Source: an uncultured Carboxylicivirga sp. (GTDB lineage: Bacteria > Bacteroidota > Bacteroidia > Bacteroidales > Marinilabiliaceae). Taken from it: DNA of 64,000 bases. Both the position numbers and the translations under genes were made by a program. The stretch is taken from contig NZ_OY764327.1 of assembly GCF_963668385.1 (NCBI RefSeq), positions 4,498,501-4,562,500 on the forward strand, given 5' to 3'. Below, one piece after another: positions 34,438-55,764 of this stretch. How positions within the stretch are numbered: position 1 is the stretch's first letter; each line of letters begins with the position of its first letter. The notes beneath the pieces were generated by a model. That model did not search any database and was not told where the DNA came from. It saw nothing but the letters and a program-made list of their open reading frames with translations.

Positions 34438-34458
34438 TATTAGTGTTTTAGTTTATAA

Positions 34459-36344: not shown

Positions 36345-36383
36345 GATTGTGGATTTAGTGTTAAATATGATTCTTGTAATTGT

Positions 36384-37496: not shown

Positions 37497-37499
37497 AGC

Positions 37500-38699: not shown

Positions 38700-39592
38700 T
38701 TTTCTTTATTTTTTAAGGTGATATGCCAAATAAGAGCATCGTAATAAGCTGACAGATGCTTATAATTGTTTTTAATGATGAATCTTATGGTATTTGCGGG
38801 AATTGAAATACAAAGAAGATAAAGAAACGTAAGCACTTTGATATACCACTTAAAATGCCTTCGCATAAATAAAATACGGTTCCTGTTTAAAAAGTAAGTT
38901 TTTAAAGGACTGTCTTTTCCGGTGGATACAGATTCTTTGTGGAAAACACATGATTGTGGTTGAAACATTATTTTAAAACCTGCTCTCCGAATACGTTCAC
39001 TCCAATCGTGCTCTTCATAATACAAGAAATAAGCTTCTTCCATTAATCCAACCTGATTGATTACCCGCTTGGGAATCATCATTGCACAACCATGTGCGAA
39101 TGGTGTTTCTTGCGGTTTAATATGTTGTCCTTCATTTTTTTGATACTGCCCAATCCCTTTCATTCTTAATGTTAAGGGATTCATTTTGGTAAATCCGGCA
39201 TATTGAATTATTCCGGGTCGTTCAGTGTACTGAATTAAAGGACTTACAGCACCAATTTTATCATCGGCCTCAAGTAAATCAACCATAGGTTTCAAAAAAG
39301 TTGGATCAACAAGTGTATCGTTGTTTAAAAGTAGGATGTACTTTCCCTTTGCTTGATTAATTCCTAAGTTATTACCTCCCGAAAATCCTAGATTGCGAAT
39401 TGATTTAATGAGCTTAACATTAGGGAAATCGAGGTTTAATTTTTCAAGTTCCTCTTCTCCTGAGTTATTATCAACAATGATAACTTCAAAATCAACATTG
39501 CTAACTAATTGTAATGATTTAAGCAGTTCATTTGTCATTTCTGATTGCTTGTAATTTATAGTTACAATTGATATGAAGATACTTTGCTGCAT
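38684..39592 (-). CDS. Family 2 glycosyltransferase (rhamnosyltransferase-like)
   Basis: The frame is open from a TTG at 39610, but the ATG at 39592 (MQQSIFISIVTINYKQ) fits the family start and lies 24 bases after the sigma-54-like -12 element, so I use it. The GT2 domain shows VIIVDNNSGEE, GFSGGNNLGINQAKGKYILL and NNDTLVDP, then EEHDWSERIRRAGF. A C-terminal membrane-associated helix follows. It resembles WbbL-type rhamnosyltransferases. It is the first gene of the glycosyltransferase operon. Confidence 0.88.
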   Translation of the reverse strand: MQQSIFISIVTINYKQSEMTNELLKSLQLVSNVDFEVIIVDNNSGEEELEKLNLDFPNVKLIKSIRNLGFSGGNNLGINQAKGKYILLLNNDTLVDPTFLKPMVDLLEADDKIGAVSPLIQYTERPGIIQYAGFTKMNPLTLRMKGIGQYQKNEGQHIKPQETPFAHGCAMMIPKRVINQVGLMEEAYFLYYEEHDWSERIRRAGFKIMFQPQSCVFHKESVSTGKDSPLKTYFLNRNRILFMRRHFKWYIKVLTFLYLLCISIPANTIRFIIKNNYKHLSAYYDALIWHITLKNKEKWIIS

Positions 39593-39615
39593 GTTTAAAT
39601 ATTTTTTCAAATAAT

Positions 39616-39632
39616 TTCAAGCAGTGTGCCAA
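39616..39632 (-). promoter_or_regulatory. Sigma-54-like -24/-12 promoter (P2) of the glycosyltransferase operon
   Basis: On the minus strand it reads TTGGCAC-ACTGC-TTGAA, followed by AT. The -24 box is a full match to the sigma-54 consensus TTGGCAC and the 5-bp spacer is exact. The -12 box is TTGAA rather than TTGC(A/T), with one base differing. The distance to the ATG (39592) is 24 bases, identical to P1. Confidence 0.6.
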
Positions 39633-39699
39633 TGACATTAATATTCAGTATTACAAATTGTTATATAGCTTGGTTTGAGAAATGCGTAAGGATAATGTC

Positions 39700-39711
39700 T
39701 TCAGAAATGAA
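39700..39711. promoter_or_regulatory. TTCA-N4-TGAA dyad, candidate activator site for P2
   Basis: TTCAGAAATGAA lies 67 bp upstream of the P2 -24 box. A second dyad (39730) is 30 bp away and a third precedes P1. The position fits an upstream site for an NtrC-type activator. Confidence 0.5.
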
Positions 39712-39729
39712 GAACCTTATTGATAGAAG

Positions 39730-39741
39730 TTCAAAAATGAA
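39730..39741. promoter_or_regulatory. TTCA-N4-TGAA dyad, candidate activator site for P3
   Basis: TTCAAAAATGAA lies 69 bp upstream of the P3 -24 box. It is identical in its 12 bases to the dyad before P1 (49978-49989). Confidence 0.5.
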
Positions 39742-39810
39742 GATTATTGATAAGAAATATACTCTACAATAATAATCATACATCATTATATATCAATATG
39801 ATATAACTTT

Positions 39811-39826
39811 CGGCATACTCATTGAA
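39811..39826 (+). promoter_or_regulatory. Weaker sigma-54-like promoter (P3) of the methyltransferase gene
   Basis: It reads CGGCAT-ACTCA-TTGAA on the plus strand. The spacing and -12 box are the same as in P1 and P2; the -24 box differs at two positions from TGGCAC. A possible TTG start for the downstream gene falls inside the -12 box, which argues for the ATG at 39858. Confidence 0.45.
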
Positions 39827-39857
39827 AATACATTTACAAACTTATAATCAAAGAACT

Positions 39858-40595
39858 ATGAAAGTAAGAAATCCCCAATCTCGCTATCACTTAGAAATAA
39901 AAAAGTATGCTAAAGTTTTAGAAGTAGGTGGTGGACATAATCCTCATTACAGATCCAATGTAGTAGTTGACAAGTACTTGGATTCCAACTATCATCGAAA
40001 AACAGATATTAAAGTACATAAGCATCAGAAATTTCTGAAAGCTGATGGTGAAAACCTTCCTTTTGAAGATAATTCGTTCGATTATGTTATTTGTAATCAA
40101 GTACTAGAACATGTAGAAAATCCACAAGCTTTTTTAAAAGAGCAAACCAGAGTGGCAAAAGCCGGATATATCGAGGTTCCTTCACTAATAGGTGAATATT
40201 TGTTTCCCAAAGAAGCACATAAATGGTTGATTCTTGAGTTGGATAACAAACTTGTATTGATGGAGAAAGAGAACCTATGGTTTAAAACGGGCCTCGATTT
40301 CGGCTTTTTGTTTTTAACTTGGTTACAGAAAACATCAATAGGTTATAAAATTTTAATGGATACAAAACCTAATTTTATGACAGTAAGGTATGAATGGAAA
40401 GACGATATAGAATTTTTGGTAAATCCCAAGGATGAAAAATACACCAGGTATTTTACCGAAGCATGGAATGAAGAAATGGTTCATTTGTTCTTTCCTCATC
40501 AATCTAATTTTTCGGAATTTAAAGAAACATCAAAATCATTGGGAAATATTATTTGGAGAGCTATGGGGGGGCGCTTAGTGAGCAAAAGATCCTGA
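39858..40595 (+). CDS. Class I SAM-dependent methyltransferase
   Basis: I place the start at the ATG 39858 (MKVRNPQSRYHLEIK) because the longer frame begins inside the promoter element. The protein has a Rossmann-like glycine motif VLEVGGGHNPH, an acidic loop, and the motif FEDNSFDYVICNQVLEHVEN typical of Methyltransf_11. The substrate is unknown; in a polysaccharide cluster it may methylate a sugar or a lipid carrier. It is the only plus-strand gene of the cluster and is convergent with the polymerase gene. Confidence 0.85.
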   Translation: MKVRNPQSRYHLEIKKYAKVLEVGGGHNPHYRSNVVVDKYLDSNYHRKTDIKVHKHQKFLKADGENLPFEDNSFDYVICNQVLEHVENPQAFLKEQTRVAKAGYIEVPSLIGEYLFPKEAHKWLILELDNKLVLMEKENLWFKTGLDFGFLFLTWLQKTSIGYKILMDTKPNFMTVRYEWKDDIEFLVNPKDEKYTRYFTEAWNEEMVHLFFPHQSNFSEFKETSKSLGNIIWRAMGGRLVSKRS

Positions 40596-40620
40596 ATCCT
40601 ATGGTTCAGGATTTTCTTCT
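40589..40620. terminator. Bidirectional terminator between methyltransferase and polymerase genes
   Basis: The stem ATCCTGAA/TTCAGGAT with an 8-nt loop is followed by TTTTCTTCTTTTT. It overlaps the stop codons of both convergent genes. Confidence 0.65.
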
Positions 40621-42044
40621 TTTTCCCATTCTGGCATTAAGTGTATAAAAGCAATACTCATATAAACAATTAAACCGTTGGGCATTTGTCCTAATGCTCC
40701 ACTTCCATATGAAGCGGCCATTATACCTGCCATTCCAGCTAATAAGGCTGTAGCCTTCATTTTATAAGCTTCTGTTTTTAATTTAAAGACAATCAGATAA
40801 CTACTGTGTGTCAAAATGTAAAAAAGAATAAGTAGATGAAGTGTTAAGCCAACTCTACCTTGTTCTGCCCATATTTGTACATACCAACTGTCAGTAGGCG
40901 TTTCTGCAAGAAAGGTACCAGGAGAAAAGCGTAATCCCCAATTACCTGCTGAGCCCAGTCCACCGCCAAATGGTCGGGTGGCTAAATATGCTTTTAAAAG
41001 TTTTTGATTTTCCTTACGTACCATTAAAGATGGATTATCAGGATCCAAACCGGTCCTAAATCGTCGAATTTCATAAACACTATTACCTATTGTTGAATAC
41101 TTAAGAAACACAAATGCAGAAAGCATAATAAACGCACCAGCTAACAATAATTTTATTTTACGACTAAGCACAGCATATATTGTTAACCCGGCAAAAGGAA
41201 CAGCCATTGCCCCACGTGTACCCGATATTAACATACCATAAAATGCAGCCATTCCGACAATACCCCAAAATATTTTGTCCTTACGTTTATTAGTATGTAA
41301 TGCCATAATTGAAAAAACCACCCCCGAATATCCCATTGAACCTCCATAGGTAGCAGCATCTGTAAAAAAGGAAAAAACACGCAACCCTCCTGGTAATAAA
41401 TGGGTTTTTCCTCCAATAACCGCCAACCAATGTTGTTCCCATGGATCAGGACCAATAACTAATTGCATCATCCCTTTTGCAACGCCCGCTAAAGTAAAAT
41501 AAGCCCACATTTTGATCATAAGATCAAAATCAACCCTCCTATTAAAAGTTAAAAAGATTAAAGGAATAGTTAGAAACATATAAAGTGCCACTCCGCGCAT
41601 AGCATAAAACCATGCTATTCGGCTAATAGCTTCAGGGTTTACAAGTTCAAATAAAGCATATAAATACCAAATAATAGCAACAAATGTAAAACCATTCCAT
41701 GCCTTACGCCAATTAACACTTTTATTAAACTGACTGAATATAACCGCTAGCCAGGTTGCAACCAATAAACCATCAACTGATAATCCTAATGGCCCTGGAA
41801 CATAGCGAGCCAACCCCATGGCAAAGTAGTTGGCTATAAAAACAATAATGATCCCAACTCGAGGTTGCAAAAAAATCATTGCCAGCACAATTACAATGAA
41901 TGGTAAAATTATTAATGCTAATGCTAAGGGAAGTTGTGCCTTAGCAAGAAATAGCATCATTAAAATGATTAATAATGATAATATTGAACCAATTACTATT
42001 CTCAGTACCTGAGCATATTTTCCTTTGTTAGGAGGTGCTACCAT
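40599..42044 (-). CDS. wzy: O-antigen polymerase/ligase-like membrane protein (Wzy)
   Basis: This polytopic protein of 481 residues has about 12 hydrophobic segments. A large loop near residues 335-385 contains RKENQKLLKAYLATRPFGGG and the following LGSAGNWGLRFSPGTF, with a downstream ETPTDSWYVQIWAEQGRVGL. The pattern ending in a W-x-E-Q/G-G-x-x-G motif is that of Wzy_C/O-antigen ligase proteins. Downstream of a Wzx-type flippase and a Wzz-type protein it is the probable repeat-unit polymerase. It overlaps the flippase gene by 17 bp and ends the operon from P1. Confidence 0.85.
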   Translation of the reverse strand: MVAPPNKGKYAQVLRIVIGSILSLLIILMMLFLAKAQLPLALALIILPFIVIVLAMIFLQPRVGIIIVFIANYFAMGLARYVPGPLGLSVDGLLVATWLAVIFSQFNKSVNWRKAWNGFTFVAIIWYLYALFELVNPEAISRIAWFYAMRGVALYMFLTIPLIFLTFNRRVDFDLMIKMWAYFTLAGVAKGMMQLVIGPDPWEQHWLAVIGGKTHLLPGGLRVFSFFTDAATYGGSMGYSGVVFSIMALHTNKRKDKIFWGIVGMAAFYGMLISGTRGAMAVPFAGLTIYAVLSRKIKLLLAGAFIMLSAFVFLKYSTIGNSVYEIRRFRTGLDPDNPSLMVRKENQKLLKAYLATRPFGGGLGSAGNWGLRFSPGTFLAETPTDSWYVQIWAEQGRVGLTLHLLILFYILTHSSYLIVFKLKTEAYKMKATALLAGMAGIMAASYGSGALGQMPNGLIVYMSIAFIHLMPEWEKEENPEP

Positions 42045-43371
42045 TCAGTTGAGTTCTTAGAAACACTCTTAAATTTAAGTTTTTTCTTGAAATAATAATT
42101 TCTTTATCACGATAAATATATAACCAACCTAAAGCAGATCCTAAAAGAGTAAATAAAACGGTAGCTACTGCAATATATATTAAGGATTGAAAAATCAATA
42201 CGGCTAAAAAGTCGAATATTATATTTGCAATTAACATTAGCATAATTTTTATGAAATTCTGTTTAGGTTTATTCATTGCAAACAATGCAACTCCAGTATA
42301 TCTATCGAAAGGTAAAACCAGAATATGAACACAAAAAACAAATAATATCACTCGTTGAACAGAAATATAATCAAGGTAATTGCTTCCACCAATTAGTTTT
42401 AAAGCAAAATCTGGAAAAATCAATAATCCTATAATAACTGGCACTAAAATAATGGATGTGATAAGAGTATAGCTAATTAGCAATTTAAAAAATTCTCCGT
42501 TCTTCTTTTTTAAACTGGCAGATAGTTGAGGAAATGCGGCAGATGAAAAACTTCGTAATGGTATTTCAACTAACTCAACAAACTTGACTGGTATGGCATA
42601 AATTGCAATTGCTTCGGGTCCCATAAAAGGGAACATACTCAAAATAAAGGTGTCGGAGCTTTTTAACAAATTACTACCTATATAACCTGCTGTAGCATAT
42701 TTACCAAAATGCATAATTCTCGACCTATAGTCATATACTTTATCGAATATTTGAGCTATTCCGTCCCAATTTTTAATCATGGCTATGATACTTGATATCG
42801 CATTGGCAGTAATTACTATTAGAATTAAATCTTTTAAAATATATTGATCTTTTACACTTAAATAAACTATAGTTAATAGCAAGATGGAAGCTCCATTAAT
42901 TGTTTTTAAAACAGAAACACGGTTAAGCTTTTGATCACCTTGTGCAACAACCGAAGCTTGATGAAAAGGTAAATTGGCAATAGATAAAAACGGATAGAAT
43001 AAAAATACAGCTAAATACGCCTCTGATCCTATATAATTGAAACATACAAAGTAAATCAAAAAAGAAAGTATACTTACTGTAACAGTAGATATTACAGATA
43101 GTTGGTAAGAAGCCGCTATTATATTTTTACGCTGATCAATTGCATTTGAAGAAATTAGTCGAATTGCTGCTGTTCCTGTTAAGCCTAACCGAAGCATATC
43201 CAACAAGGTGGCGGCGGTTATAAAAATAACATATTGTCCAAATAACTGTTGGTTAAGATGCCTAGTTAGTAAAAGAAAGGAGAGAAATCCAAATAAAGCC
43301 TGAGAAATATTTCCCGACAATGCATGTATATTGTCTTTAACTGTAGAACTGGAGAGTATAGATATTTTCAT
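42028..43371 (-). CDS. wzx: Oligosaccharide flippase (Wzx/MATE-like)
   Basis: This protein of 447 residues has about 12-14 membrane helices and no soluble domain. The start ISILSSSTVKDNIHALSGNI and the region GKYATAGYIGSNLLKSSDTF, followed by PVKFVELVEIPLRSFSSAAF, are typical of polysaccharide_synt flippases. It should move lipid-linked repeat units across the inner membrane. The ATG overlaps the Wzz-like stop by 4 bp. Wzx and Wzy together define this as a Wzx/Wzy-dependent cluster. Confidence 0.9.
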   Translation of the reverse strand: MKISILSSSTVKDNIHALSGNISQALFGFLSFLLLTRHLNQQLFGQYVIFITAATLLDMLRLGLTGTAAIRLISSNAIDQRKNIIAASYQLSVISTVTVSILSFLIYFVCFNYIGSEAYLAVFLFYPFLSIANLPFHQASVVAQGDQKLNRVSVLKTINGASILLLTIVYLSVKDQYILKDLILIVITANAISSIIAMIKNWDGIAQIFDKVYDYRSRIMHFGKYATAGYIGSNLLKSSDTFILSMFPFMGPEAIAIYAIPVKFVELVEIPLRSFSSAAFPQLSASLKKKNGEFFKLLISYTLITSIILVPVIIGLLIFPDFALKLIGGSNYLDYISVQRVILFVFCVHILVLPFDRYTGVALFAMNKPKQNFIKIMLMLIANIIFDFLAVLIFQSLIYIAVATVLFTLLGSALGWLYIYRDKEIIISRKNLNLRVFLRTQLNGSTS

Positions 43372-45461
43372 GATATCAATCTTTTAAAAACTTGTTCCTT
43401 AATTAACCTCCTGAATTTGGATCGCTTTTTGGGTATCTGACCTATCATTTCCTCCATATTTTCAGGTCGAAGGTTATTTAACAAACCGAGAGGTTCAATC
43501 TGTACTGTTTCCTTAAGATGATTTAAGATAAATGTATCTGAAGACGACCATGTTCGATTTGCATCAGCAATTAAAAAATGAAGCTTTCCTTTTTTGAGCT
43601 CTACCGGATCAATAATATTATCTGAGAGTGATTTAATTTCAGTCGTTATAATTTTAGCTTTTTCATTTGTATTGCTTAATTCATTCTTAGAACCTGAAAC
43701 AATATCATATCCTTTATCCATTAATAATTTATTAATCTGGTTGATACAATAAGTTTTTCCTTCACCACTCCAATTGCTTAAAAATTGTATTTCGAAAGAT
43801 TCATTATTATCTCTTTTATTGTATTTATAAAGAATCATTTCTACTGCCGGTTTTAAACCTCGAGCTATAATATCATCTTTTGCAAGAATTGTTTCTGTAG
43901 TTGTATTAGGTAAAGTACCTGCTATGTGAATGGATGCCATAGAAGCAAATCTTTTACCTGTTTTAATCGTTTTATCCAAAAGTTCAAAAAGAAAAATACC
44001 TAAAAAAGTAAACATAAATGTCGCCACCATAATCACCAAAACAAAAATCTTTCGCTGCGTAGGTTCTGCATCAATTGGGAGGTGCGGTTTATCCAAAAGC
44101 TTCATATTTGATCTCATCTCATCGTTTTGCTGTTTTAGTTTGGCTAAACCAAGATGATGAAGGATTTCCAAATAGGATTTTTCTTTTACATCAATTTCAC
44201 GTTCAATTCTTTTGAGAGTAGCTCCTAAAGGAGCATACTGATTATATAATTCTTTAAACTCAGCACTTTTAACCTCCATTGCTAATAATCGAGCTTTGGC
44301 ACTTTCATAATCAATTACATTTTGTAACCAATCATTCAATAACTTTTCTATTGCAATGCCATCACTGTGTTTTTCATAGATGTATAGTGAATCCATTTTT
44401 GCATTCAAACTTGTTTCTAAATCTTTCTTTTTATCATTCAGTTGCTGCTGCTTTTGCTGCTGCACGTTTGTATGTAAGTCACTTAATTCCATCTCAGCAA
44501 GCATTCTATTCACACTTATTAAATGATTACGCAGCTGCATAATCTCTTTGGTTTTTAAATTGATATTAAATCGAGACTGGGTTTCTGCTTCAAGCTTTGA
44601 AAGAATAGCCTCAGAAGCTTTGTATTCTAACAATACATCCTGAAGCTTGACCTCTATTTTTTCTTGTTGAGAAGAGATGTGTTTTGTTTGTTCGTAATAG
44701 TTAACAATATTATTACTTGAATTAAATTGTAACAACCTATCTTCAGCGCTATTTAAGTCTGCAGCTGCATTATTCAATTGCCTTGTAAAATATTGAATTA
44801 TCTCATCCGTTTGATTTCTTTTTAATAAACTATACTTATCTAAAAATACTTCTATTAAAATTCTCAATGTTTGAAACGTTATGCCAGGATCATTTGATTT
44901 ATATGATAAAACGATAACATCACTACCTCCATCCTGAACAGTTTTAATACTAGATATTGCTTTAAAGCTATAGTGTGGATGATCAAAGTTGATTAAACTA
45001 TATAAGAAGTTACTTTTGTCCTGCTTCATATAATCCAGAAGCCTTAAATAAGTCTTTTCCTCATTATCTTTTACAACTAACTCTTTGACGTCACCAGGAA
45101 CTGTTTCTTGAAATTTAGTGAATGATTCTTTTGATATAATAGATGGAATTGGTTCTTCTGTTATAAGATGTAAGGCCAATAAACGCAAGGCGGTTTCCTC
45201 AATTACACTTCTTGAATTTAAGATTGACAACAGATTGTTATAAGCCGTTTTAGTTGCAAAATAATCAACCCTACTGTTACCTAAGTCTTCCAACGATGAT
45301 CCGGAAGCTATTGCTGTAAAAATGCTCGCGTTTGTTGAATACTCAAATGTTGGATTACGGGTTAAAAAATACATAATACTACCCGTAATAATAGGTAGTA
45401 TGAACAACCATTTACTCTGACGAATTAAAACCTGTATAAATCGATAAATATCCATTTCCAT
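43368..45461 (-). CDS. Polysaccharide co-polymerase (Wzz/GumC-like) with a degenerate tyrosine-kinase tail
   Basis: This protein of 697 residues has an N-terminal membrane helix (LFILPIITGSIMYFL), a Wzz-type periplasmic domain with long coiled coils (about 200-430), and a second helix (about 477-497; KIFVLVIMVATFMFTFLGIF). The cytosolic tail has a Walker A-like SNWSGEGKTYCINQINKLL but lacks clear A' and B motifs and a terminal tyrosine cluster. The bacterial tyrosine kinase portion thus looks reduced and probably does not autophosphorylate. It should set chain length and couple export to the outer-membrane protein encoded 7 bp upstream. Confidence 0.85.
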   Translation of the reverse strand: MEMDIYRFIQVLIRQSKWLFILPIITGSIMYFLTRNPTFEYSTNASIFTAIASGSSLEDLGNSRVDYFATKTAYNNLLSILNSRSVIEETALRLLALHLITEEPIPSIISKESFTKFQETVPGDVKELVVKDNEEKTYLRLLDYMKQDKSNFLYSLINFDHPHYSFKAISSIKTVQDGGSDVIVLSYKSNDPGITFQTLRILIEVFLDKYSLLKRNQTDEIIQYFTRQLNNAAADLNSAEDRLLQFNSSNNIVNYYEQTKHISSQQEKIEVKLQDVLLEYKASEAILSKLEAETQSRFNINLKTKEIMQLRNHLISVNRMLAEMELSDLHTNVQQQKQQQLNDKKKDLETSLNAKMDSLYIYEKHSDGIAIEKLLNDWLQNVIDYESAKARLLAMEVKSAEFKELYNQYAPLGATLKRIEREIDVKEKSYLEILHHLGLAKLKQQNDEMRSNMKLLDKPHLPIDAEPTQRKIFVLVIMVATFMFTFLGIFLFELLDKTIKTGKRFASMASIHIAGTLPNTTTETILAKDDIIARGLKPAVEMILYKYNKRDNNESFEIQFLSNWSGEGKTYCINQINKLLMDKGYDIVSGSKNELSNTNEKAKIITTEIKSLSDNIIDPVELKKGKLHFLIADANRTWSSSDTFILNHLKETVQIEPLGLLNNLRPENMEEMIGQIPKKRSKFRRLIKEQVFKRLIS

Positions 45462-45468
45462 ATATCAA

Positions 45469-46188
45469 TCAAAATTCAAGACCTGTAAGTTCCATCAATT
45501 GATGATAATGAGCATAAAAATTATGCTTTGCTTTATTATAATCATCTTTAGCCTTACCTACTGTTGATGCTAAAAGTGCAAACTTGTTGATGTCTGTTCT
45601 ACCGTTCAGTAAATCCTTTTCAGCTTTAACATATGCAACATTTAATGTCTGATAAATATCATAGTAAGTACGCATACTCTCATCTAAGTATTTGAGATTA
45701 TAATATGCCTCAATTATAACAGTTCGAAGTTGGTTTTCTGCATCTTGCATTGTAAATAATGATTTTTTCTTAACCAACTCTAGCTTTTCTACCTCTTTAG
45801 TTCTACTTGTTAATGATGAAAACGGAAGTTTTATACCAACTCCCCCATAGTAACGAGTACTTTCTCCACGATTTAAAAAACCATAATTGTATGAGCCATC
45901 TGGTGAAGTATTATCTTGTAATATAACCTGGTCATATATTCCATAGTTAGCAGTTCCTTCAATAAATAAATAATCAAGCCATTTTCTTTTTTGCAAGCTT
46001 ATTTCCTTTTCATCTATTTCCATTTGTGTATGCTGCGATTGAATAAATGGAGAATGTTCAATAGCTGCCTCTACTAATTCATTTATACTGGGTAAATTAA
46101 TAAGCGAAGAATCAGATTCGGTTTGAGCAGCAACAATAGTTGTAGATATGAACAAAATTGATAGTAAAAATAGTTTAACTAATTCCAT
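45469..46188 (-). CDS. Short TolC-like outer-membrane factor
   Basis: This protein of 239 residues has a signal peptide (FLLSILFISTTIVAAQ) and long helices of the outer-membrane efflux (OEP/TolC) family: SLINLPSINELVEAAIEHSP, followed by QMEIDEKEISLQKRKW. Typical TolC-family proteins have about 430-500 residues with two repeats. This one has a single repeat length and no sign of truncation by frameshift. It may form a half-type factor or an oligomer with more subunits. In an exopolysaccharide cluster it takes the place normally held by a Wza-type export protein, which is absent. Confidence 0.75.
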   Translation of the reverse strand: MELVKLFLLSILFISTTIVAAQTESDSSLINLPSINELVEAAIEHSPFIQSQHTQMEIDEKEISLQKRKWLDYLFIEGTANYGIYDQVILQDNTSPDGSYNYGFLNRGESTRYYGGVGIKLPFSSLTSRTKEVEKLELVKKKSLFTMQDAENQLRTVIIEAYYNLKYLDESMRTYYDIYQTLNVAYVKAEKDLLNGRTDINKFALLASTVGKAKDDYNKAKHNFYAHYHQLMELTGLEF

Positions 46189-46211
46189 ATCTTATTGAAT
46201 ATCATGTTATA

Positions 46212-47327
46212 TTAAACACTTTCATGTTGAAAGACAGCCGGAATTGTCTTAACCAAAATCCACATATCTCCCCAAAAGCTATTGTTTTCAGCATATTGAA
46301 CATCGAGTTCCTTTCTACCATCAGCCGACATTTGATTTAGCTTTGCTCTTTCTGTTACCTGCCATAAGCCAGTTAAGCCTGCAGGAGCTAAAAATCTTTT
46401 TGCCCATCGATCAGTCGTTAATTTTTCAGCTTCGTATAATGGCAAAGGGCGATTTCCTACAATAGACATATCTCCTTTTAGTACATTAAATAGCTGAGGT
46501 AATTCATCCATACTTGTATTGCGAAGAAGTCTTCCTACTTTTGTTATCCGAGGGTCATTGGATACTTTAAAAAAGGCTCTTTTTTGTTTAAGTTTCTTTT
46601 CCTGTGCATGACTGTTCTCATTAATAAATCCAGAATCTCCAAGAAGTAGGGCAGCATATTTAAGCTCTTTTAAACTATTAACCTCTTCAAAATCTTTTGT
46701 CTTATATTGATTTTGACTTAATAATTCGGCAATACGTTTATCAGCATCTGGATACATGGACCTAAACTTATAGAAATCAAAAATTTTATAACCAGAGCCT
46801 ACTCGTTTAGATGAATAAATTACTTTTCCTTTTGATTCAAGACGAATTAATATCGCAATTAACAACATTAACGGTGAAAGGACAATAATTAATGATCCAG
46901 CAAATAATATATCAAATATTCTTTTGGGAAGCCTTGTAGTGTAATTTAAATATGTTTTATCATAAATATTATCATCATTCACTGAATATTTACAAAGAAA
47001 TAGAGCTCTTGTCAAAATTTGATTGAACGAAGAATTGGTAGAAAAGAGTTCATTCATTCCATGTCCTTGATATTTCGCAAAATACATAGGATCACCTATA
47101 ATCATTAACTCTATACCTGAATTAATTATTAAAAGCTTTAAGCGTTGAATTTGATGAATCTGATTTGATAAATTACCTTCAAGCTTAAGGATTATTACAT
47201 CTATTCCTTCCAAAGGCTTTTCAAGATAATTAATTGATTCACATACAACAATATCGAGCTCTTCCTTTTGTTTAGATAACTCTCCCTGTGCAACTTTATC
47301 TCCAATATACAACACTCTGAATTTCAT
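46212..47327 (-). CDS. Undecaprenyl-phosphate sugar transferase with a receiver-like N-terminus
   Basis: Residues 1-120 resemble a receiver-like Rossmann fold (KFRVLYIGDKV, VIILKLEG) but without the catalytic aspartate pattern. The C-terminal half is a bacterial sugar transferase (WbaP/WcaJ family): a membrane anchor after TRLPKRIFDILFAGS, then KVIYSSKRVGSGYKIFDFYK and FRSMYPDADK. The ending RVGRLLRNTSMDELPQLFNV and LKGDMSIVGNRPLP is the family signature. It should start repeat-unit assembly on the lipid carrier. A co-operonic CheY-like protein just upstream could interact with the N-terminus (inference). Confidence 0.9.
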   Translation of the reverse strand: MKFRVLYIGDKVAQGELSKQKEELDIVVCESINYLEKPLEGIDVIILKLEGNLSNQIHQIQRLKLLIINSGIELMIIGDPMYFAKYQGHGMNELFSTNSSFNQILTRALFLCKYSVNDDNIYDKTYLNYTTRLPKRIFDILFAGSLIIVLSPLMLLIAILIRLESKGKVIYSSKRVGSGYKIFDFYKFRSMYPDADKRIAELLSQNQYKTKDFEEVNSLKELKYAALLLGDSGFINENSHAQEKKLKQKRAFFKVSNDPRITKVGRLLRNTSMDELPQLFNVLKGDMSIVGNRPLPLYEAEKLTTDRWAKRFLAPAGLTGLWQVTERAKLNQMSADGRKELDVQYAENNSFWGDMWILVKTIPAVFQHESV

Positions 47328-47381
47328 AATAATTAAGATTAAATTTATTCAAATTCAATGCATTAAATCTGCACAATTAAC

Positions 47382-47762
47382 TTAAATAGCTTGTGATACA
47401 TTTAATAGTCTTTTGATTCGAGCTTGTAATTCTGAAGGGTTAAAAGGTTTCTCTAAATAATCGGCAGCCCCTTTTAGTATTAAATTCGTTTTGTTTTCAC
47501 TTGAATCATTACTCGATAAAATAATTATAGGTATATGGCGATAGATCTCACTGGCTTTTATTTGTTCAAGAAAAGCATTACCATCAACTCGTGGCATATT
47601 TAAATCGGTTACAATTAAATCAGGAAAGTATCCCGCCTGAACAATCGCTAGACCTTCTAAACCGTTTTTGGCTGTATTAACCTCATAATCTGACAATAAT
47701 ATTGCTCGCAATAACTGTCTGAAATCATCTTTGTCGTCAACTAATAGAATCTTTTTTTTCAT
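47382..47762 (-). CDS. Single-domain response regulator (CheY-like)
   Basis: This 126-residue receiver has the acidic residues DDKDD at 9-13, phospho-acceptor D53 (IVTDLNMPRVDG), a Ser in IILSSNDSS and K near the end in YLEKPFNP. There is no output domain. It lies 21 bp after the LruC gene and 54 bp before the sugar transferase, inside the exopolysaccharide operon. A post-translational switch of an export or assembly protein is therefore more likely than chemotaxis. Confidence 0.9.
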   Translation of the reverse strand: MKKKILLVDDKDDFRQLLRAILLSDYEVNTAKNGLEGLAIVQAGYFPDLIVTDLNMPRVDGNAFLEQIKASEIYRHIPIIILSSNDSSENKTNLILKGAADYLEKPFNPSELQARIKRLLNVSQAI

Positions 47763-47783
47763 ACATAAGGTTTTATTTGATTA

Positions 47784-49871
47784 TTAGTAGATTTTGTTAT
47801 TATTCCGATAACCAGGCATATCTTTATACCAATCCATATAATTATATCCTCTTGAAACGGCCCATGGAGAAAACATTAAATGAGCTTTTTGTACATCTTC
47901 TTTTTCAATGGGATAACTAAAACTAACTGGAATATTAATTGCCCATGGCAAATATTTATTAGATACATAGTATTCGCCAATTGATGGGTTTGAATCATCA
48001 TCCCCTGTGCCTAATAGAGTTTGGTCAACCAAATCAGTAGGTTCTTTATTGGGTAAATGCACTTCAACACCTCTATCTCTGTTTATAATCATAAAAGGAT
48101 TGTATGGAGCGGTACCTAATATTGCAAAGGTAAGTGGTTCCACAAAATCAATGTTTACAAATTGAGTGTCTGGCACTACATAAGGTGCATTCGTCGACGT
48201 ATTTACTCCTATTCCACTTCCTGGATAAGGTAAATTGTTAAAAGCATCATCAAATAGAATTATTGAAGCTTTGCTTTGATTATTCTCTGTTCCGTTAGAT
48301 GAAATATCCAAATAATTACGGGTAAATCGCTGTCCACTAACAGATGCAATGTTGTTAGGACTAGTATTAAGAAGCAATCCAAAGGCATTATGGTAGGAAG
48401 CTCCAATAGCCTTCACAACTATTTTAGATTGAATTCCTGTGATGTGATTTTGAGCATCAGTAACCTGATTGAAGTTATAGTCAATAACTAAATCATTAAA
48501 ATCATAGTCCCCCTTGTACGGCCACAAATCTTCATAAACAAGAGTACCAAATAAATTCTCCCCGGGATAATGATTTTGGAACGCTTTTGATGGATCATTA
48601 GGATAAGCATCAAAAACATCTGTAACACCATCTCCGTCACTATCAGTAGGAGTATCAATGGGTTGATAGAATTCTGTATTTACCGCTGTATTAGGTGTAA
48701 TCGTTGTATAAAATACAGCGTCATTAAAATCTTCATCACTACCGCTATCTCTTCTTATATCTTCAAATCCCAATAGCAAAATATTACGCTGATCGTCATA
48801 TAACATTACATTATGCTTTTTTAAATCCGCATCTTGTTCAGCATTAAATTTAATATCGGAATAATGAGTATAAATACCATTGGTAACAGTTCCATTTCTC
48901 CAACCCTGACCAGTAATAAACCAACTAACCACTGTATTAGGAGGAAAAAACCTGGAATATTCATTTGTTATAGGATCTAAGTAATAAAGTTGAACCTTTT
49001 CTCCCGATAGTAACCCACCTCCTGAGTTTTGATAGGAAACATTTGGAAATATCACAGTTTTATCCCTGATATCATCAACTGTCGCAGGAGGATCATCTAT
49101 AGAATAAGTATAATAACCCAATAAATTTAACCATCCGGCTCCTTCATGAACAAAAGTTACCCAAATTTCACATTGTTCGTTTACAATAAGGTTTGCATCT
49201 GAATTACTTGCTAAGTACTGTGGATGCGATTGGGGTAAAGTAATCCCTTCTGGTAGCGATGCATTAACATCATTTAAAAACGCTTGATCAATTTCATCCT
49301 TAACAGGATCTAAGTAATTGGGTACACCTTGAGAATTCCAACTACCCAATGTATAATACCCATTCACTATTGTTACAGACTCAACTTGAGAACTTTTTAA
49401 TATTGCTGAATTTGTATTGGTATATTCAAGGCTCCCACCAATAATTATATTAGTATAACCGTAAGTACTAACTGCTGTTTTGTGGGGTAATCCAATGTAT
49501 TTACTGATAATATAAATACTATCCACAATACTTGGTAAATCTAATTTTACAGTATATTCCCCATTTTCATTTGTTATACCTGTTGCTACTTTATATTGAG
49601 TATTGTTTTCGACTAAAATCCCTTGTTCATCTAACGGATTCTGAGTATATATTTCTAATACCGCTCCTTTAATGGGTTCATTAGAAAAATTTAAAGTTGT
49701 AATTGTGTAATCCTGATTTTGAGTTGTATTAAATTCGAATCCCTGATAGATACCTGAACTATCAATTTGCTGTTCAATAGACTCTATTTGTTTTTCTAAG
49801 CAGCTACTAAAGTTCAGGCTTAATAACAACAAAACAAATACGTTTACTTTAATATGTTTATTCTTTTCCAT
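47784..49871 (-). CDS. LruC-domain surface lipoprotein
   Basis: This protein of 695 residues has a lipoprotein signal (LLLLSLNFSSC). It continues with a CarboxypepD-like beta domain (about 65-120), a DUF4114-like region containing LLGFEDIRRDSGSDEDFNDA, and a calcium-binding thrombospondin type 3 motif DSDGDGVTDVFDAYPND. The C-terminal LruC region starts YEDLWPYKGDYDFNDLVIDY. LruC proteins are exported in Bacteroidota and other phyla, with unknown function. It is the first gene after the sigma-54-like promoter P1 and precedes all export genes, so it may be a matrix component or surface anchor for the polysaccharide. Confidence 0.85.
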   Translation of the reverse strand: MEKNKHIKVNVFVLLLLSLNFSSCLEKQIESIEQQIDSSGIYQGFEFNTTQNQDYTITTLNFSNEPIKGAVLEIYTQNPLDEQGILVENNTQYKVATGITNENGEYTVKLDLPSIVDSIYIISKYIGLPHKTAVSTYGYTNIIIGGSLEYTNTNSAILKSSQVESVTIVNGYYTLGSWNSQGVPNYLDPVKDEIDQAFLNDVNASLPEGITLPQSHPQYLASNSDANLIVNEQCEIWVTFVHEGAGWLNLLGYYTYSIDDPPATVDDIRDKTVIFPNVSYQNSGGGLLSGEKVQLYYLDPITNEYSRFFPPNTVVSWFITGQGWRNGTVTNGIYTHYSDIKFNAEQDADLKKHNVMLYDDQRNILLLGFEDIRRDSGSDEDFNDAVFYTTITPNTAVNTEFYQPIDTPTDSDGDGVTDVFDAYPNDPSKAFQNHYPGENLFGTLVYEDLWPYKGDYDFNDLVIDYNFNQVTDAQNHITGIQSKIVVKAIGASYHNAFGLLLNTSPNNIASVSGQRFTRNYLDISSNGTENNQSKASIILFDDAFNNLPYPGSGIGVNTSTNAPYVVPDTQFVNIDFVEPLTFAILGTAPYNPFMIINRDRGVEVHLPNKEPTDLVDQTLLGTGDDDSNPSIGEYYVSNKYLPWAINIPVSFSYPIEKEDVQKAHLMFSPWAVSRGYNYMDWYKDMPGYRNNNKIY

Positions 49872-49894
49872 ACCCTGACTTTTATCGATAACAA

Positions 49895-49911
49895 TTCAAG
49901 TCATGTGCCAA
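49895..49911 (-). promoter_or_regulatory. Sigma-54-like -24/-12 promoter (P1) of the LruC-wzy operon
   Basis: On the minus strand it reads TTGGCAC-ATGAC-TTGAA. The last base of the -12 box is 24 bases before the ATG (49871), the same as at P2. The full -24 match and exact spacer support sigma-54; the -12 box departs by one base (TTGA for TTGC). It is just downstream of the NtrC-type gene. Confidence 0.62.
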
Positions 49912-49977
49912 TACAACTATATGCTTATTTTACTGCATGTTGCATATATCTAACAGTTTGGTATTAGCTGGATATTC

Positions 49978-49989
49978 TTCAAAAATGAA
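49978..49989. promoter_or_regulatory. TTCA-N4-TGAA dyad, candidate activator site for P1
   Basis: TTCAAAAATGAA lies 66 bp upstream of the P1 -24 box. The same 12 bases occur at 39730-39741 and a one-base variant at 39700-39711, each close to another sigma-54-like promoter. Confidence 0.5.
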
Positions 49990-50034
49990 CACTACCCTCT
50001 TCTTTTCCAAAGGAAATATTGAAATTGAAGAATT

Positions 50035-51417
50035 CTAATTTTTCATTGTGATATTGTATTTAGAAATACGACGATATAGTGCATTCCAATCTAAATTTAA
50101 AAGACGTGCAGCCTCAGCTTTATTATAATCAACTTTTTCAAGAACTTTTTGAATTGTCTGTTTTTCTATTTCTTTTAGATCGTAGGTATGCTCAGAAATA
50201 TAAACCTCTTCTTTTACGTTAAAACTATTGATGAAAGTGAAATGATGAGGTGCTAATTCGTTAGAATTGCACATTATAACTGCACGTTCAACCATATTTT
50301 TCAACTCACGAACATTACCCGGAAAAGAATATTTTGATAATAAATAGATGGCATCTGGATGTATCTCTTTTATGTTCTTTCCCATCTTGGCGGATAAGTT
50401 TTTAAGAAAGTGTTTAGCCAACAGTGGAATATCCTCAACTCTTTCTCTTAATGGGGGAATATTAATAATGAAGGTTCCAACACGATGAAACAAATCTAAG
50501 CGAAAGTTTTTCCCATTTGTTAATTCTTCAACCGATTTATTAGTTGCAGAAATAATTCTAATATCAAAGTGTTGAGTTTGATGTGTTCCAACTTTGGTAA
50601 ATTTTCTTTCTTCCAAGACTCTCAGTAACTTTACTTGAAGTCCCAGTGTCATTTCTCCTATCTCGTCAAAAAAAAGTGTTCCTTTATTGGCAGATTCAAA
50701 CCAACCAGCTTTATCAGAGATGGCTCCGGTAAAACTACCTTTTTTATGCCCAAAAAGTTCACTTTCAAATAATGCCTCAGGTATAGCCGACATGTTAAGA
50801 GCACCAAAGAACTCATCATTTCTATTACTCAAATGATGTATACCTCTGGCAACCACCTCCTTCCCTGTCCCACTTTCTCCGATAAGTAAAACGGATGTAT
50901 CCGGGGTTTGCGATACCAACTGCATTTGTTCTTTAATGCTTTCAATCAATTTACTCTTCCCAACAATGGTATTACCTATTTTACTATCTACCTCTGCTTG
51001 CAGTAATTTATTTTTCTTGATTGCTTTTTTATATCCACTCTTTAAATCAGAAAATTTTCGCGTTCTTTCTATCGCTAACCATAACTGTTCGGATGAAATA
51101 GGTTTCCGACAATAGTCTGTAGCACCCTGACGAAGTGCTCCAATAACAGTTTCCATCTTATCAGAAGAACTAATCATTATGACTTCAATATCAGGGTACT
51201 CATCTTTAACTTTTTGAATCATTGATAATCCATCCATTTCAGGCATATGAAAATCCATAATAATAAGATCTATTCTTTCATTCGATAGTATTTTAAAACC
51301 AACAGATGGCTTATCGGCTGTAAATATGTTTAACTTGTCTTTTAACATGGATTGCACCATATTTCTAACAATTGGATCATCATCTATAATAAGTACATTA
51401 AGAGAATATATTTTCAT
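50035..51417 (-). CDS. NtrC-family sigma-54-dependent response regulator
   Basis: This protein of 460 residues has the full domain order: a receiver with D55 (LIIMDFHMPEMDG), an AAA+ domain with Walker A GESGTGKE (180-187), the sigma-54 contact loop GSFTGA (227-232), Walker B FFDEIGE, and a C-terminal Fis-type HTH (DYNKAEAARLLNLDWNALYR). Serine in place of the first alanine of GAFTGA is a known tolerated variant. It follows the receiver-kinase by 3 bp in the H-NOX operon and precedes P1. It is the obvious candidate activator of the exopolysaccharide promoters. Confidence 0.93.
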   Translation of the reverse strand: MKIYSLNVLIIDDDPIVRNMVQSMLKDKLNIFTADKPSVGFKILSNERIDLIIMDFHMPEMDGLSMIQKVKDEYPDIEVIMISSSDKMETVIGALRQGATDYCRKPISSEQLWLAIERTRKFSDLKSGYKKAIKKNKLLQAEVDSKIGNTIVGKSKLIESIKEQMQLVSQTPDTSVLLIGESGTGKEVVARGIHHLSNRNDEFFGALNMSAIPEALFESELFGHKKGSFTGAISDKAGWFESANKGTLFFDEIGEMTLGLQVKLLRVLEERKFTKVGTHQTQHFDIRIISATNKSVEELTNGKNFRLDLFHRVGTFIINIPPLRERVEDIPLLAKHFLKNLSAKMGKNIKEIHPDAIYLLSKYSFPGNVRELKNMVERAVIMCNSNELAPHHFTFINSFNVKEEVYISEHTYDLKEIEKQTIQKVLEKVDYNKAEAARLLNLDWNALYRRISKYNITMKN

Positions 51418-51420
51418 AAT

Positions 51421-52524: not shown

Positions 52525-52529
52525 AAACT

Positions 52530-55181
52530 TTAGGATAAAAGGTTATTTTGCTCAATTTTTTTAATGATTTCAGGAAATCGATTTAATTCTTCGGATAATG
52601 ATTCTAGTTGAATTAATTCAATACATTCAATCAAATGATTAGCATAATCAATTATATACTGAAAGTGGTATTGATTACCTAATTTAATTAGTTTTAAAGC
52701 AAACTCTTCGATTTCGAAGAGCACAATATGGTCTTTTAATTTATTCCACTTTGGTAAGAGTTCTGTTTTTAATACTGTCAAAATTGAAGTTAAATGAGGT
52801 ATTAGATCACCAGGAATTACAGGATCACTTTCAATTTTATTTACTAATACTTCTCCCTTATCAGTAACATTTGTATAGTTCAGATACTTCATCATCACTC
52901 TTATTAAATCTTCTCTTTTAATGGGTTTACAAAGTATATCATCAAAATAAACAGAATCTTTAACTCTATCCATTTCAAAAACTGAAGCGGTATATGCAAT
53001 AATTGGTAATTTAGGTTTTGATTTACGCATTTCAATTATTCTACTAGCTACTTCAAATCCTTCCATATCCGGTAATCTGATATCTAAGAAAAGAATATCA
53101 TATTCATTTTGAGCTATTTTTGTTAAAGCTCCGTTTCCATTAACAGCCACAGATGATTTAACTTTATGAAATTCAAGTAATGATTCAAGGATCTCGGCAT
53201 TGGTAGAAATATCATCAACGATCAGAGCTGTGCTATTCTCAAATGTAATTGAATTCAATTCAAAACTTTTATCGTCTTTATAATTATGTACATCCGAAAC
53301 TGAAACGTCGGGTATTGTAACTATAAACTCGGCACCTTTTCCTAGCTCACTCTTTACACTTATAGTACCTCCCATTTTTTCAATTAATCGTCTTGATATA
53401 GCCAACCCCAAACCAACTCCTTCATATTCTCGGTTAGCTTGTCCGGATTGTTGCGTAAAATTTTCGAAGATTAATTCCGATTTATCAGGATTTAATCCAA
53501 TTCCTGTATCTTTCACAATGAATTTTACTAAACCTTTATGTATATCATATGGAATAAAATCAGCGCGGATATTTACAAAGCCTTTATCGGTAAATTTAAT
53601 TCCATTTCCAACCAGATTAAAGCAAACTTGTTTAATTCTGTTTTCATCCATCAATAGCAACTGCGGAAAATTAGGTGTTAATTGATAAGTAAGATTAATA
53701 CCTTTTTTTTGAGCTTTATGAACAAATAGCTGCTTTATATCAAACAGAAGATTTTCAATGTTAACAGGTTTAGTAAATAATTCAAGTTTGCCAGCTTCTA
53801 TTTTTGATAGATCAAGTATATCATTTAATAATGTTAAAAGAAGATTTCCACTTTTTACAATAGATGCAATCATGTTCTTCTCTTCTGGTATATTTAACTT
53901 TTGATGTAATGCTTCACTGAATCCTAAAATAGCATTCATTGGAGTGCGTATTTCATGACTCATATTAGCTAAAAATTCACTTTTTGCCTGATTAGCCTGT
54001 TCTGCATTATCTCTTTCATTAATTAATGATTGTTCCATTAATTTTCGTTCATATGCATTGGCAATAATACCTGAAATAGTGCGAAGTAATTCCAATTCGG
54101 TCTTGGTCCATTTTTTATTTCGTTGACATTCATCAAATCCAATAAATCCAAAAAAAACACCCTTTACATATAAGGGATAGCTAATGATAGATTTTATATT
54201 TTGAGGTTCCAAAATTTCTTGTAAATCTTGTGGTAGCTCGCTTATTTTTTCAGAATATAAACGTCCTTGAGTTTTAATAATCTCCTTCCACGAAGGGATT
54301 AAGTCATAAGGAATATCTTGAAGATCTGATATTTGTGCTTCAATACTTTTATTGCACCACTCATACGTATTAGATGTATGTGTTCCATCTGCATTATCTT
54401 CAAAAATGTATACTCTACTAACATCTGTATGTTCACCAATCTCTTTTAGAATATTGTTAATTCTTATGTCAAAATCCTCAATTGTATTAAGTTTTAAAGC
54501 AATATCAGAAAGAATTGATTGCTGAACCAAACCTTGTTCTAATGCGATACTTTGATCATGTAATGTTTTGGCTATTAGTCTTGAACGAGTTATGTCGCGT
54601 GCTACAATAATGACCTCATTAAAACTACAATCTTCTTTGATTCTGAGTTCATCGGTATTTAATAAAGCACACAACCTGTCGTTACATTCAATACATCGTT
54701 GGTTAAAAAATTGAAGGTTGACGCCAAACCACTTCGGCTGTTTATTTTTGGTATTAAACCTTACTTCATGGTAGCTTAAACATTTCCCTTTTTTTATGCT
54801 ATCTGCATAAATTCTTTGGAATTTAATTTTTGAGCGAGACAAAATTAAGGCAAAAAAAGATTGGTTGATTAACTCTTCTGTATCATAACCAAGTATTTGA
54901 GAAACAATCGGATTAACAAAAGTGATAATTCCGTCTAGTCTGGTCTTAAAAATGATATCATTAATACTCTCAACCAAAGCTTTATACTCTTGCTCACGTT
55001 GTTGTAATTTTTGAGTACGTTCGTCCACTAACTGAGTAAGGGTTGCATTTAATGCCGCCAGCTTTTTATTGGTTTCATATAATTCTAACGATTTTACTTC
55101 AAGAAGTTGCTCTGCTTCAATACGGGCATTTCTTTCCCTTTCGGCCTTTCGTTTATAAATATTTTCATTATCGCTGCTCAT
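52530..55181 (-). CDS. Cytosolic hybrid histidine kinase with PAS and GAF domains, H-NOX partner
   Basis: This soluble protein of 883 residues has an N-terminal coiled coil (1-65) and a PAS domain (about 66-200) containing C163-x2-C166-x4-C171-x13-C185. A GAF domain (about 220-385; KSIISYPLYVKGVFFGFIGF) precedes HisKA with H409 (NMSHEIRTPMNA) and HATPase (DTGIGL, GVGLGLAI). A receiver (LFLDIRLPDMEG) and a helical C-terminal tail of about 100 residues end the protein. The start codon abuts the H-NOX stop, so they are co-translated. In known H-NOX systems the NO-bound sensor inhibits the adjacent kinase. That this one does so is inferred. Confidence 0.9.
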   Translation of the reverse strand: MSSDNENIYKRKAERERNARIEAEQLLEVKSLELYETNKKLAALNATLTQLVDERTQKLQQREQEYKALVESINDIIFKTRLDGIITFVNPIVSQILGYDTEELINQSFFALILSRSKIKFQRIYADSIKKGKCLSYHEVRFNTKNKQPKWFGVNLQFFNQRCIECNDRLCALLNTDELRIKEDCSFNEVIIVARDITRSRLIAKTLHDQSIALEQGLVQQSILSDIALKLNTIEDFDIRINNILKEIGEHTDVSRVYIFEDNADGTHTSNTYEWCNKSIEAQISDLQDIPYDLIPSWKEIIKTQGRLYSEKISELPQDLQEILEPQNIKSIISYPLYVKGVFFGFIGFDECQRNKKWTKTELELLRTISGIIANAYERKLMEQSLINERDNAEQANQAKSEFLANMSHEIRTPMNAILGFSEALHQKLNIPEEKNMIASIVKSGNLLLTLLNDILDLSKIEAGKLELFTKPVNIENLLFDIKQLFVHKAQKKGINLTYQLTPNFPQLLLMDENRIKQVCFNLVGNGIKFTDKGFVNIRADFIPYDIHKGLVKFIVKDTGIGLNPDKSELIFENFTQQSGQANREYEGVGLGLAISRRLIEKMGGTISVKSELGKGAEFIVTIPDVSVSDVHNYKDDKSFELNSITFENSTALIVDDISTNAEILESLLEFHKVKSSVAVNGNGALTKIAQNEYDILFLDIRLPDMEGFEVASRIIEMRKSKPKLPIIAYTASVFEMDRVKDSVYFDDILCKPIKREDLIRVMMKYLNYTNVTDKGEVLVNKIESDPVIPGDLIPHLTSILTVLKTELLPKWNKLKDHIVLFEIEEFALKLIKLGNQYHFQYIIDYANHLIECIELIQLESLSEELNRFPEIIKKIEQNNLLS

Positions 55182-55718
55182 TTAGTTTTTTGTTATAACA
55201 AATTGTACTTTACTGCCATCATCTTCGATATAATCTTTATTTATAGTAACCTCCTCTTTGAAATAAGAAAAACATCCTAACATTAAACCCTCAGCAAAAT
55301 CACTCATCTTTCTACCCGAACTGTAGGTAACTTCTAATCTCTCGTCAATTTGATGAACAACTAAACTTGGCAGCTCTGCTTCTGGGTACAATTTCAATAC
55401 TTCTTTATGAATGGTATTTTCAACATATTTTAAAAAAGTAAAACCATCGTTTATACCTTCGAACATGTTGCCATAACGTTCATGAAAAACAAGAAACAGG
55501 TACTTTCCAAATTCTTTTAATAATACGTTAATTTCTACATGCGTTTGGTGGCTTAATTCAACTACTAGATTTACTAATTCAACATGTTCATATGTTCCAA
55601 CTGAAGTGTAAGCTCCATTATTAGGTAAATTGGCTTTTTGTATGATCTGATCCAATATTGTATCACCAAATTTTAATTCAGTCATATTAAGAAATTCTGT
55701 AAATATTAAGCCTTTCAT
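55182..55718 (-). CDS. H-NOX (heme NO-binding) sensor protein
   Basis: The open frame extends to 55751, but H-NOX proteins begin MKGLIFTEFL, which is encoded from the ATG at 55718; I use it (178 residues). The proximal heme ligand is H104 in NTIHKEVLKLYPEAELP. The propionate-binding Y-x-S-x-R motif is Y132-S-S134-G-R136. These are the defining residues of heme-binding H-NOX, so it should bind heme and sense nitric oxide. It leads a four-gene signalling operon (kinase, receiver-kinase, NtrC regulator). Bacterial H-NOX proteins usually act on an adjacent kinase or cyclic-di-GMP enzyme. Confidence 0.93.
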   Translation of the reverse strand: MKGLIFTEFLNMTELKFGDTILDQIIQKANLPNNGAYTSVGTYEHVELVNLVVELSHQTHVEINVLLKEFGKYLFLVFHERYGNMFEGINDGFTFLKYVENTIHKEVLKLYPEAELPSLVVHQIDERLEVTYSSGRKMSDFAEGLMLGCFSYFKEEVTINKDYIEDDGSKVQFVITKN

Positions 55719-55764
55719 AAAACTGATTTTTATTATTAAAGGTATGCTCATTTTATTAAAAAAT

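Follow-up and report, generated by a model that had tools for sequence, protein, structure and literature searches.

A 64,000-nucleotide stretch of the genome of an uncultured Carboxylicivirga sp. (Bacteroidota; contig NZ_OY764327.1, positions 4,498,501 to 4,562,500), hereafter the window, probably encodes a gas-to-coat circuit within a single locus, in which a haem nitric oxide-binding (H-NOX) protein would act through kinases on an NtrC-type activator and thence on polysaccharide genes. The window is part of a 6.27 Mb one-contig genome. A regulatory operon on its minus strand (55718-50035; gene gaps of 0-5 nt) encodes H-NOX, a hybrid kinase, a receiver-kinase and an NtrC-type sigma-54 activator. 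It immediately precedes a 14-gene Wzx/Wzy polysaccharide cluster (49871-33262), with 163 bp between the activator gene and the first cluster unit, unit A. Control of biofilm by nitric oxide (NO) via H-NOX has been studied mainly in Proteobacteria, largely through cyclic-di-GMP (c-di-GMP). The parts of the proposed circuit that sequence comparison supports are the proteins themselves, the palindrome-promoter geometry, its link to activator orthologs, synteny, the presence of rpoN and the failure to find GGDEF domains. The weaker claims, that the locus would respond to NO and with what sign, draw on knowledge of the H-NOX family, the checks made here covering sequence features.

The operon consists of four genes:

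55182-55718, minus strand: H-NOX protein, 178 aa from the second ATG; PF07700 (HNOB) at 128.4 bits against a cut-off of 25.5; the open reading frame (ORF) might begin at 55751
52530-55181, minus strand: hybrid histidine kinase with coiled coil, Cys-rich PAS, GAF, HisKA (H409), HATPase, REC (D700) and a C-terminal part, assigned by Pfam and conserved residues
51421-52524, minus strand: receiver-kinase with REC (D56), HisKA (H148) and HATPase, assigned by Pfam; residues conserved
50035-51417, minus strand: NtrC-type sigma-54 activator with REC (D55), an AAA+ domain carrying GESGTGKE and GSFTGA, and a Fis-type helix-turn-helix, assigned by Pfam (REC-Sigma54_activat-HTH_8), sequence and alignment

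All four regulatory proteins have Pfam domains above the cut-offs, and alignments show that the expected His and Asp residues are kept in both kinases and in the activator. Position 55718 is the likelier start of H-NOX because solved H-NOX relatives begin at the second ATG. Its segments tIHKEVLKLYPEAELP and YSSGR align with solved H-NOX chains and contain the proximal haem His region and the YxSxR motif; the protein is the single H-NOX match in the whole genome. Among the matches listed, the GSFTGA loop occurs in 19 of 22 activator-ortholog ORFs (the other three are without a match) versus 10 of 39 other NtrC ORFs. The genome contains one rpoN gene, which encodes the RpoN box ARRTVAKYRE, and 18 matches to the sigma-54 activator domain, 12 of them strong. 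Membership of the activator in the PrsR family was rejected (TIGR02915 score 347.7; curated cut-off 502.6). In a plasmid search with the activator, all 3759 records were below 60% identity, the best among the matches listed reaching 39%.

The DNA between the genes gives good support to the predicted sigma-54 output of this NtrC protein onto the polysaccharide cluster. A palindrome, TTCRTTTTYGAA (best form CTTCGTTTTCGAAG), was first spotted in the DNA before the gene for the LruC-domain protein in loci of activator orthologs. In the window it accompanies -24/-12 elements, with distances measured to the TGG of the -24 element:

49978-49989, minus strand: palindrome U1, TTCATTTTTGAA, 79 bp upstream of P1
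49895-49911, minus strand: P1, -24/-12 element TTGGCACATGACTTGAA; 39 nt from TGG to the ATG of 49871
39730-39741, minus strand: palindrome U2, TTCATTTTTGAA, 110 bp from P2 and 81 bp from P3
39700-39711, minus strand: palindrome U3, TTCATTTCTGAA, one mismatch, 80 bp from P2
39616-39632, minus strand: P2, -24/-12 element TTGGCACACTGCTTGAA; 39 nt from TGG to the ATG at 39592
39811-39827, plus strand: P3, candidate divergent -24/-12 element CGGCATACTCATTGAAA, one mismatch (CGG for TGG), 81 bp from U2

U2 and U3 are 30 bp apart in a two-way layout, with P2 on one side (110 and 80 bp) and P3, before a methyltransferase gene, on the other. A relative of the same genus (G018) has a similar layout, with 110 and 79 bp to its P2, 79 bp before its LruC gene and, on the methyltransferase side, CGGCACCAGCTTTG at 78 bp from its palindrome. 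P3 is a candidate only, since the first T of TGG is C in the window and in G018 alike.

Alone, -24/-12 elements carry little information: a sigma-54 matrix scan of the window gave 22 matches versus 22.6 in first-order randomised sequence at score 10, and 8 versus 7.7 at score 12. Promoter matches without a palindrome were therefore not used as evidence, and P1 and P2 rise above chance because of the palindrome at fixed spacing. A composite was defined as the palindrome and TGGYAY-N5-TTG, each with at most one mismatch, spaced 60-130 bp apart, and was sought in the first 600 bp beyond the activator gene wherever a locus offered 120 bp or more for the search. Among the matches listed, it is present in 12 of 17 loci of activator orthologs (at least 54% identity, a threshold of our choosing) and in none of 27 other NtrC loci, a count that includes both of the near-identical loci L090 and L094 and is partly circular because the palindrome was first noticed by eye in part of the same upstream sequences. 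Eight ortholog loci and eight other NtrC loci were too short (<120 bp) to test. First-order randomised versions yielded the composite in a mean of 0.03 ortholog loci and 0.01 other NtrC loci. The best pairs in this count lie at 68, 78-80 and 88-89 bp. A survey of 26 promoters from 22 hand-picked sources, limited to spacings of 76-82, 86-92 and 108-113 bp, gave 78-80, 88-91 and 110-112 bp, values set apart by roughly one or three turns of the DNA helix; one of these promoters (L095 at 1486) sits within a short unlabelled ORF. Three of the ortholog loci that missed have a composite further away, L105 and L099 elsewhere in the locus (79 and 80 bp) and L087 past an inserted ORF (79 bp). This 125-aa ORF of L087 stands between the activator gene and the palindrome, and palindrome and promoter are intact. 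Across the whole genome, a looser composite has four matches (reversed control, 0), two of which are P1 and P2; TTGGCAC-N5-TTGNW alone has 12 matches versus 3 for the reversed pattern.

The unit is also conserved as a whole. Full synteny was found in two relatives, G018 and G029, the latter from another genus of the family, with the shared order H-NOX, hybrid kinase, receiver-kinase, NtrC, LruC, REC, sugar transferase, OEP, Wzz, Wzx, Wzy. Proteins of the window locus are about 44-71% identical to those of G018. Activator orthologs number 25 loci among the matches listed, 11 with polysaccharide genes (the priming transferase counted) and 2 with H-NOX; many of the contigs are short and some loci come from one genome. 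In the NtrC tree, locus L074 of genome G050, whose genome has no H-NOX match, is sister to L087 inside the clade of H-NOX-bearing loci, so that H-NOX was either lost there or gained more than once. Elsewhere, other genes follow the activator and palindrome, for example those of DUF4402 proteins (L095, L050). Since activator/palindrome pairs occur without H-NOX or before other genes, the module appears to be older than its H-NOX sensor, and the sensor exchangeable.

In the circuit that we propose, H-NOX would sense NO and act on the hybrid kinase encoded directly after it, a contact suggested by the recurrence of the kinase's coiled coil and PAS beside H-NOX in other genomes. Phosphate would set the state of D55 on the activator, probably via the receiver-kinase, which is the probable final phosphodonor because no Hpt domain was found in the operon. 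The activator would bind the predicted sites at 49978-49989, 39730-39741 and 39700-39711 and drive RpoN-RNA polymerase at P1 (LruC to Wzy), P2 (glycosyltransferases) and probably P3 (methyltransferase). With palindromes at all three promoters, the 14 polysaccharide genes may form one regulon. By analogy with HnoX-HahK of Vibrio fischeri, the most likely sign is that NO-bound H-NOX inhibits the kinase, so that polysaccharide genes would be on without NO and off with NO.

The hybrid kinase may receive a second input, redox or metal, through a PAS region with five cysteines:

54627-54782, minus strand: Cys-rich PAS part, kinase residues 134-185, with C134, C163, C166, C171 and C185, all five unchanged across the kinases of the three syntenic loci that carry H-NOX

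Where kinases from H-NOX-free activator-ortholog loci align, none has more than one of these cysteines. In other Bacteroidota, the similarity of H-NOX-linked kinases to the model ends near residue 153-165, ahead of most of the five. The Cys loop seems specific to this unit, since both groups appear to be without it; as a general companion of H-NOX it was not borne out. The predicted structure of the kinase N-terminus (207 aa, three-row alignment; mean predicted local distance difference test score 77, predicted template modelling score 0.53) has a long helix and a PAS domain, the Cys loop being modelled with low confidence. For this prediction, all 50 of the listed Foldseek matches are PAS/LOV domains, haem-PAS FixL included, so we would assign neither a metal nor a haem from the model.

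Several points weigh against the proposed circuit, besides the circularity and the double counting in the ortholog count. No composite was found in the ortholog loci L121 and L101 or before the H-NOX operon itself, and the perfect palindrome alone is hardly enriched in the genome (30 matches versus 25 for the reversed pattern). The third genome-wide composite lies inside coding sequence. The fourth, a two-mismatch palindrome with a -24/-12 element, is intergenic and precedes a gene for a membrane protein, with one for a response regulator next (labels judged from sequence), so that other targets are possible. Hybrid kinases usually require an Hpt protein; the operon has no Pfam match to an Hpt domain at E <= 0.001, the rest of the genome not having been searched for one. 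Locus L074 of G050 keeps the activator, the palindrome at 78 bp, LruC and polysaccharide genes, so the activator-target pair does not depend on H-NOX. Finally, the -12 element reads GA at P1 and P2, not the classical sigma-54 GC. The base after TTG in the 26 promoters of the window and its relatives is A in 14 and C, G and T in 4 each, which suggests that the classical -12 GC may be dispensable for sigma-54 promoters in this group, though the RpoN box is usual. The GA, and -24/-12 matches that by themselves stay at the randomised level, would also fit P1-P3 as chance matches in a cluster transcribed from sigma-70-type promoters, with synteny reflecting cassette transfer rather than control. 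We consider this highly improbable, because ortholog loci repeat the palindrome and its fixed spacing and other NtrC loci do not, and because the double layout of 110 and 79-80 bp is kept between two species with locus proteins as divergent as those of the window and G018.

H-NOX output through c-di-GMP, with the adjoining activator incidental, has precedents in other H-NOX kinases (in excerpt: PMC8738867). In this genome, a GGDEF profile search gave no match, with the control positive in 8 of 14 genomes, and the organism appears unable to make c-di-GMP. With rpoN present and no GGDEF found, such an output is unlikely, and the tight packing of the four regulatory genes (0-5 nt) makes an incidental activator scarcely credible. 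More weight attaches to the alternative that the activator does control the cluster while H-NOX reports oxygen, redox or haem state and the Cys-rich PAS is the main sensor. The invariance of the five cysteines in the three syntenic loci, their near absence from kinases of H-NOX-free ortholog loci and the occurrence of the activator-cluster pair without H-NOX are in keeping with it. Against this stand the intact haem residues of H-NOX, its first place in the operon in all three syntenic loci and the restriction of the Cys loop to this unit. The usual role of H-NOX proteins without a distal tyrosine is NO sensing, and overall we judge this alternative unlikely. A first-pass annotation of the window had proposed direct sigma-54 output onto polysaccharide, from sigma-54-like sites before 49871 and 39592, and had named rpoN and the co-occurrence of H-NOX, NtrC and wzx/wzy as checks. 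The sites exist (49911-49895 and 39632-39616, minus strand), at chance level unless paired with the palindrome; one rpoN is present, and the whole unit recurs in G018 and G029. The conserved palindrome at fixed spacing, rpoN and the lack of a GGDEF match speak for the direct output, in which binding and promoter activity are predicted steps.

The cluster comprises unit A (seven genes, minus strand), the methyltransferase gene (plus strand) and unit B (six transferase genes, minus strand):

47784-49871, minus strand: LruC-domain (DUF4842/DUF4114) protein, opens unit A (PF16130, PF13448, TIGR04456)
47382-47762, minus strand: single-domain response regulator, REC (PF00072)
46212-47327, minus strand: bacterial sugar transferase of the priming phosphoglycosyl transferase type (PF02397)
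45469-46188, minus strand: outer-membrane efflux-type (OEP) protein (PF02321)
43368-45461, minus strand: Wzz/Wzc-type chain-length protein (PF02706, marginal at 25.7 against a cut-off of 25.5)
42028-43371, minus strand: Wzx-type flippase (PF01943)
40599-42044, minus strand: Wzy/O-antigen ligase type protein, closes unit A (PF04932, 32.8 against a cut-off of 31.7)
39858-40595, plus strand: methyltransferase, divergent cluster gene (PF08241); ORF listed from TTG 39822, with 39858 the sole ATG within 39801-39900
33262-39592, minus strand: unit B, six genes for GT2, GT2, GT4, GT4-like, hexapeptide transferase and GT2 (Pfam)

Priming transferase, Wzx, Wzy, Wzz and glycosyltransferases are thus all present, as in a Wzx/Wzy-type cluster. 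Poly_export (Wza) had no match among the scanned proteins, and the OEP protein is present instead. Family searches agree with the first-pass annotation that polysaccharide units start at 49871 and 39592, and Pfam and sequence likewise uphold its operon of H-NOX, hybrid kinase, receiver-kinase and GSFTGA-bearing NtrC-type activator. Directly after the last polysaccharide gene lies a gene for a hybrid kinase with a dCache-like sensor domain (30894-33185, minus strand). Upstream of the regulatory operon are an AbiH abortive-infection family gene (57396-58292, plus strand) and, after it, a DNA/RNA non-specific endonuclease gene (58772-59647, minus strand). Between H-NOX and the AbiH gene, about 800 bp at 56400-57200 have a GC content of about 50% between AT-rich flanks (27-30% GC) and contain no ORF above 80 aa.

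H-NOX is sporadic in these bacteria, occurring in 6 of 71 genomes of the family and 22 of 393 of the order (our own genome in both counts). Of the other three H-NOX genomes of the family, G007 and G009 lack an adjoining kinase, and G044 has a kinase and a short response regulator, not this unit. No activator ortholog was found within six ORFs in 22 other H-NOX neighbourhoods of the order by BLAST to the window proteins, many of the contigs being short. The H-NOX profile used to label loci and neighbourhoods was built from a partial set (minus-strand loci, including G018, left out); an H-NOX tree from the same set was not relied on. Locus L078 (G231) combines a distant H-NOX gene (22% identity) with nearby homologs of the two GT2 genes and the methyltransferase gene of the window.

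When the class was searched with the N-terminus of the kinase, 102 of 395 genomes gave a match. Among the best 30 kinase loci, 12 including the window have H-NOX adjoining the kinase, and the kinases of the 11 others (11 of 29) have a similar coiled coil and PAS. In five of these 11 (L210-L214), another NtrC-type gene stands directly before H-NOX. L210 and L211 have Glycos_transf_4 and other transferases as neighbours, and in L212 the genes that come next are an unlabelled ORF, REC, Poly_export and Wzz; polysaccharide neighbours were not seen on viewing L213 and L214, for which no family search was made. These activators are 30-39% identical to that of the window, the gene order differs, and the L214 activator is without GAFTGA. 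A Fis-type helix-turn-helix was not detected in the two that were scanned, nor were strict TGGCAY-N5-TTG sites found in the five loci. We regard these sets as leads, not as proof of a common rule. They raise the possibility, which we hold tentatively, that H-NOX was wired more than once to NtrC-type activators of surface polymers in Bacteroidota, added to an older Bacteroidales module here and separately in the NtrC-H-NOX-kinase sets. If so, NO control of coat transcription through sigma-54 would be a rule of the phylum and not a single case, and the kinase of the present locus would integrate haem and cysteine signals.

The locus offers a compact Bacteroidota case in which candidate binding sites, promoters and their spacings are specified. 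Comparing relatives that have H-NOX with those that lack it shows how a gas sensor may join an existing coat-control module, and the palindrome provides a handle for seeking the same regulon in uncultured Bacteroidales.

Regulation of bacterial surfaces by sigma-54 has been described before (PMC3162934, PMC1569441; here and below, comparisons concern excerpts of the cited papers). The closest counterpart is in V. fischeri, where HnoX, encoded in a two-gene hnoX-hahK operon, inhibits HahK in a pathway from HnoX-HahK through SypF/LuxU to SypG and syp (PMC12369376); SypG is a sigma-54 enhancer-binding protein (PMC10162802). In both systems H-NOX shares an operon with a hybrid kinase and a response regulator directly activates a polysaccharide locus, or is predicted to (PMC12369376, PMC8738867). 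Unlike in V. fischeri, where the signal passes via the Hpt domains of SypF and LuxU, no Hpt was found in the present operon and a receiver-kinase is interposed; and instead of a two-gene operon, sensor, kinases, activator and polymer genes lie in one locus. The PrsK-PrsR system of Proteobacteria with PEP-CTERM genes likewise places a histidine kinase and an NtrC-type activator near exopolysaccharide genes, with a conserved activator motif at sigma-54 promoters, there of surface-protein genes (PMC1569441, PMC9850573). PrsK is transmembrane and no H-NOX is described there, whereas here the candidate promoters sit before units of polymer genes. With Proteobacterial H-NOX pathways, the locus shares H-NOX beside a kinase and, as predicted, NO control of surface behaviour; their outputs are c-di-GMP enzymes, LuxU or HnoC, in contrast to a genome without a GGDEF match (PMC8738867). 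Among the open-access papers listed (subscription papers lay outside our scope), we found no H-NOX/sigma-54 polysaccharide circuit for Bacteroidota. The undescribed wiring claimed in the first-pass annotation therefore stands for this phylum within that literature and falls as to logic, since HnoX-HahK of V. fischeri already feeds SypG, the activator of the syp polysaccharide genes (PMC12369376). What appears to be new is the phylum, the binding site and the single-locus organisation, and the elements that the locus would add to the known scheme are a defined, predicted binding site and an exchangeable sensor.

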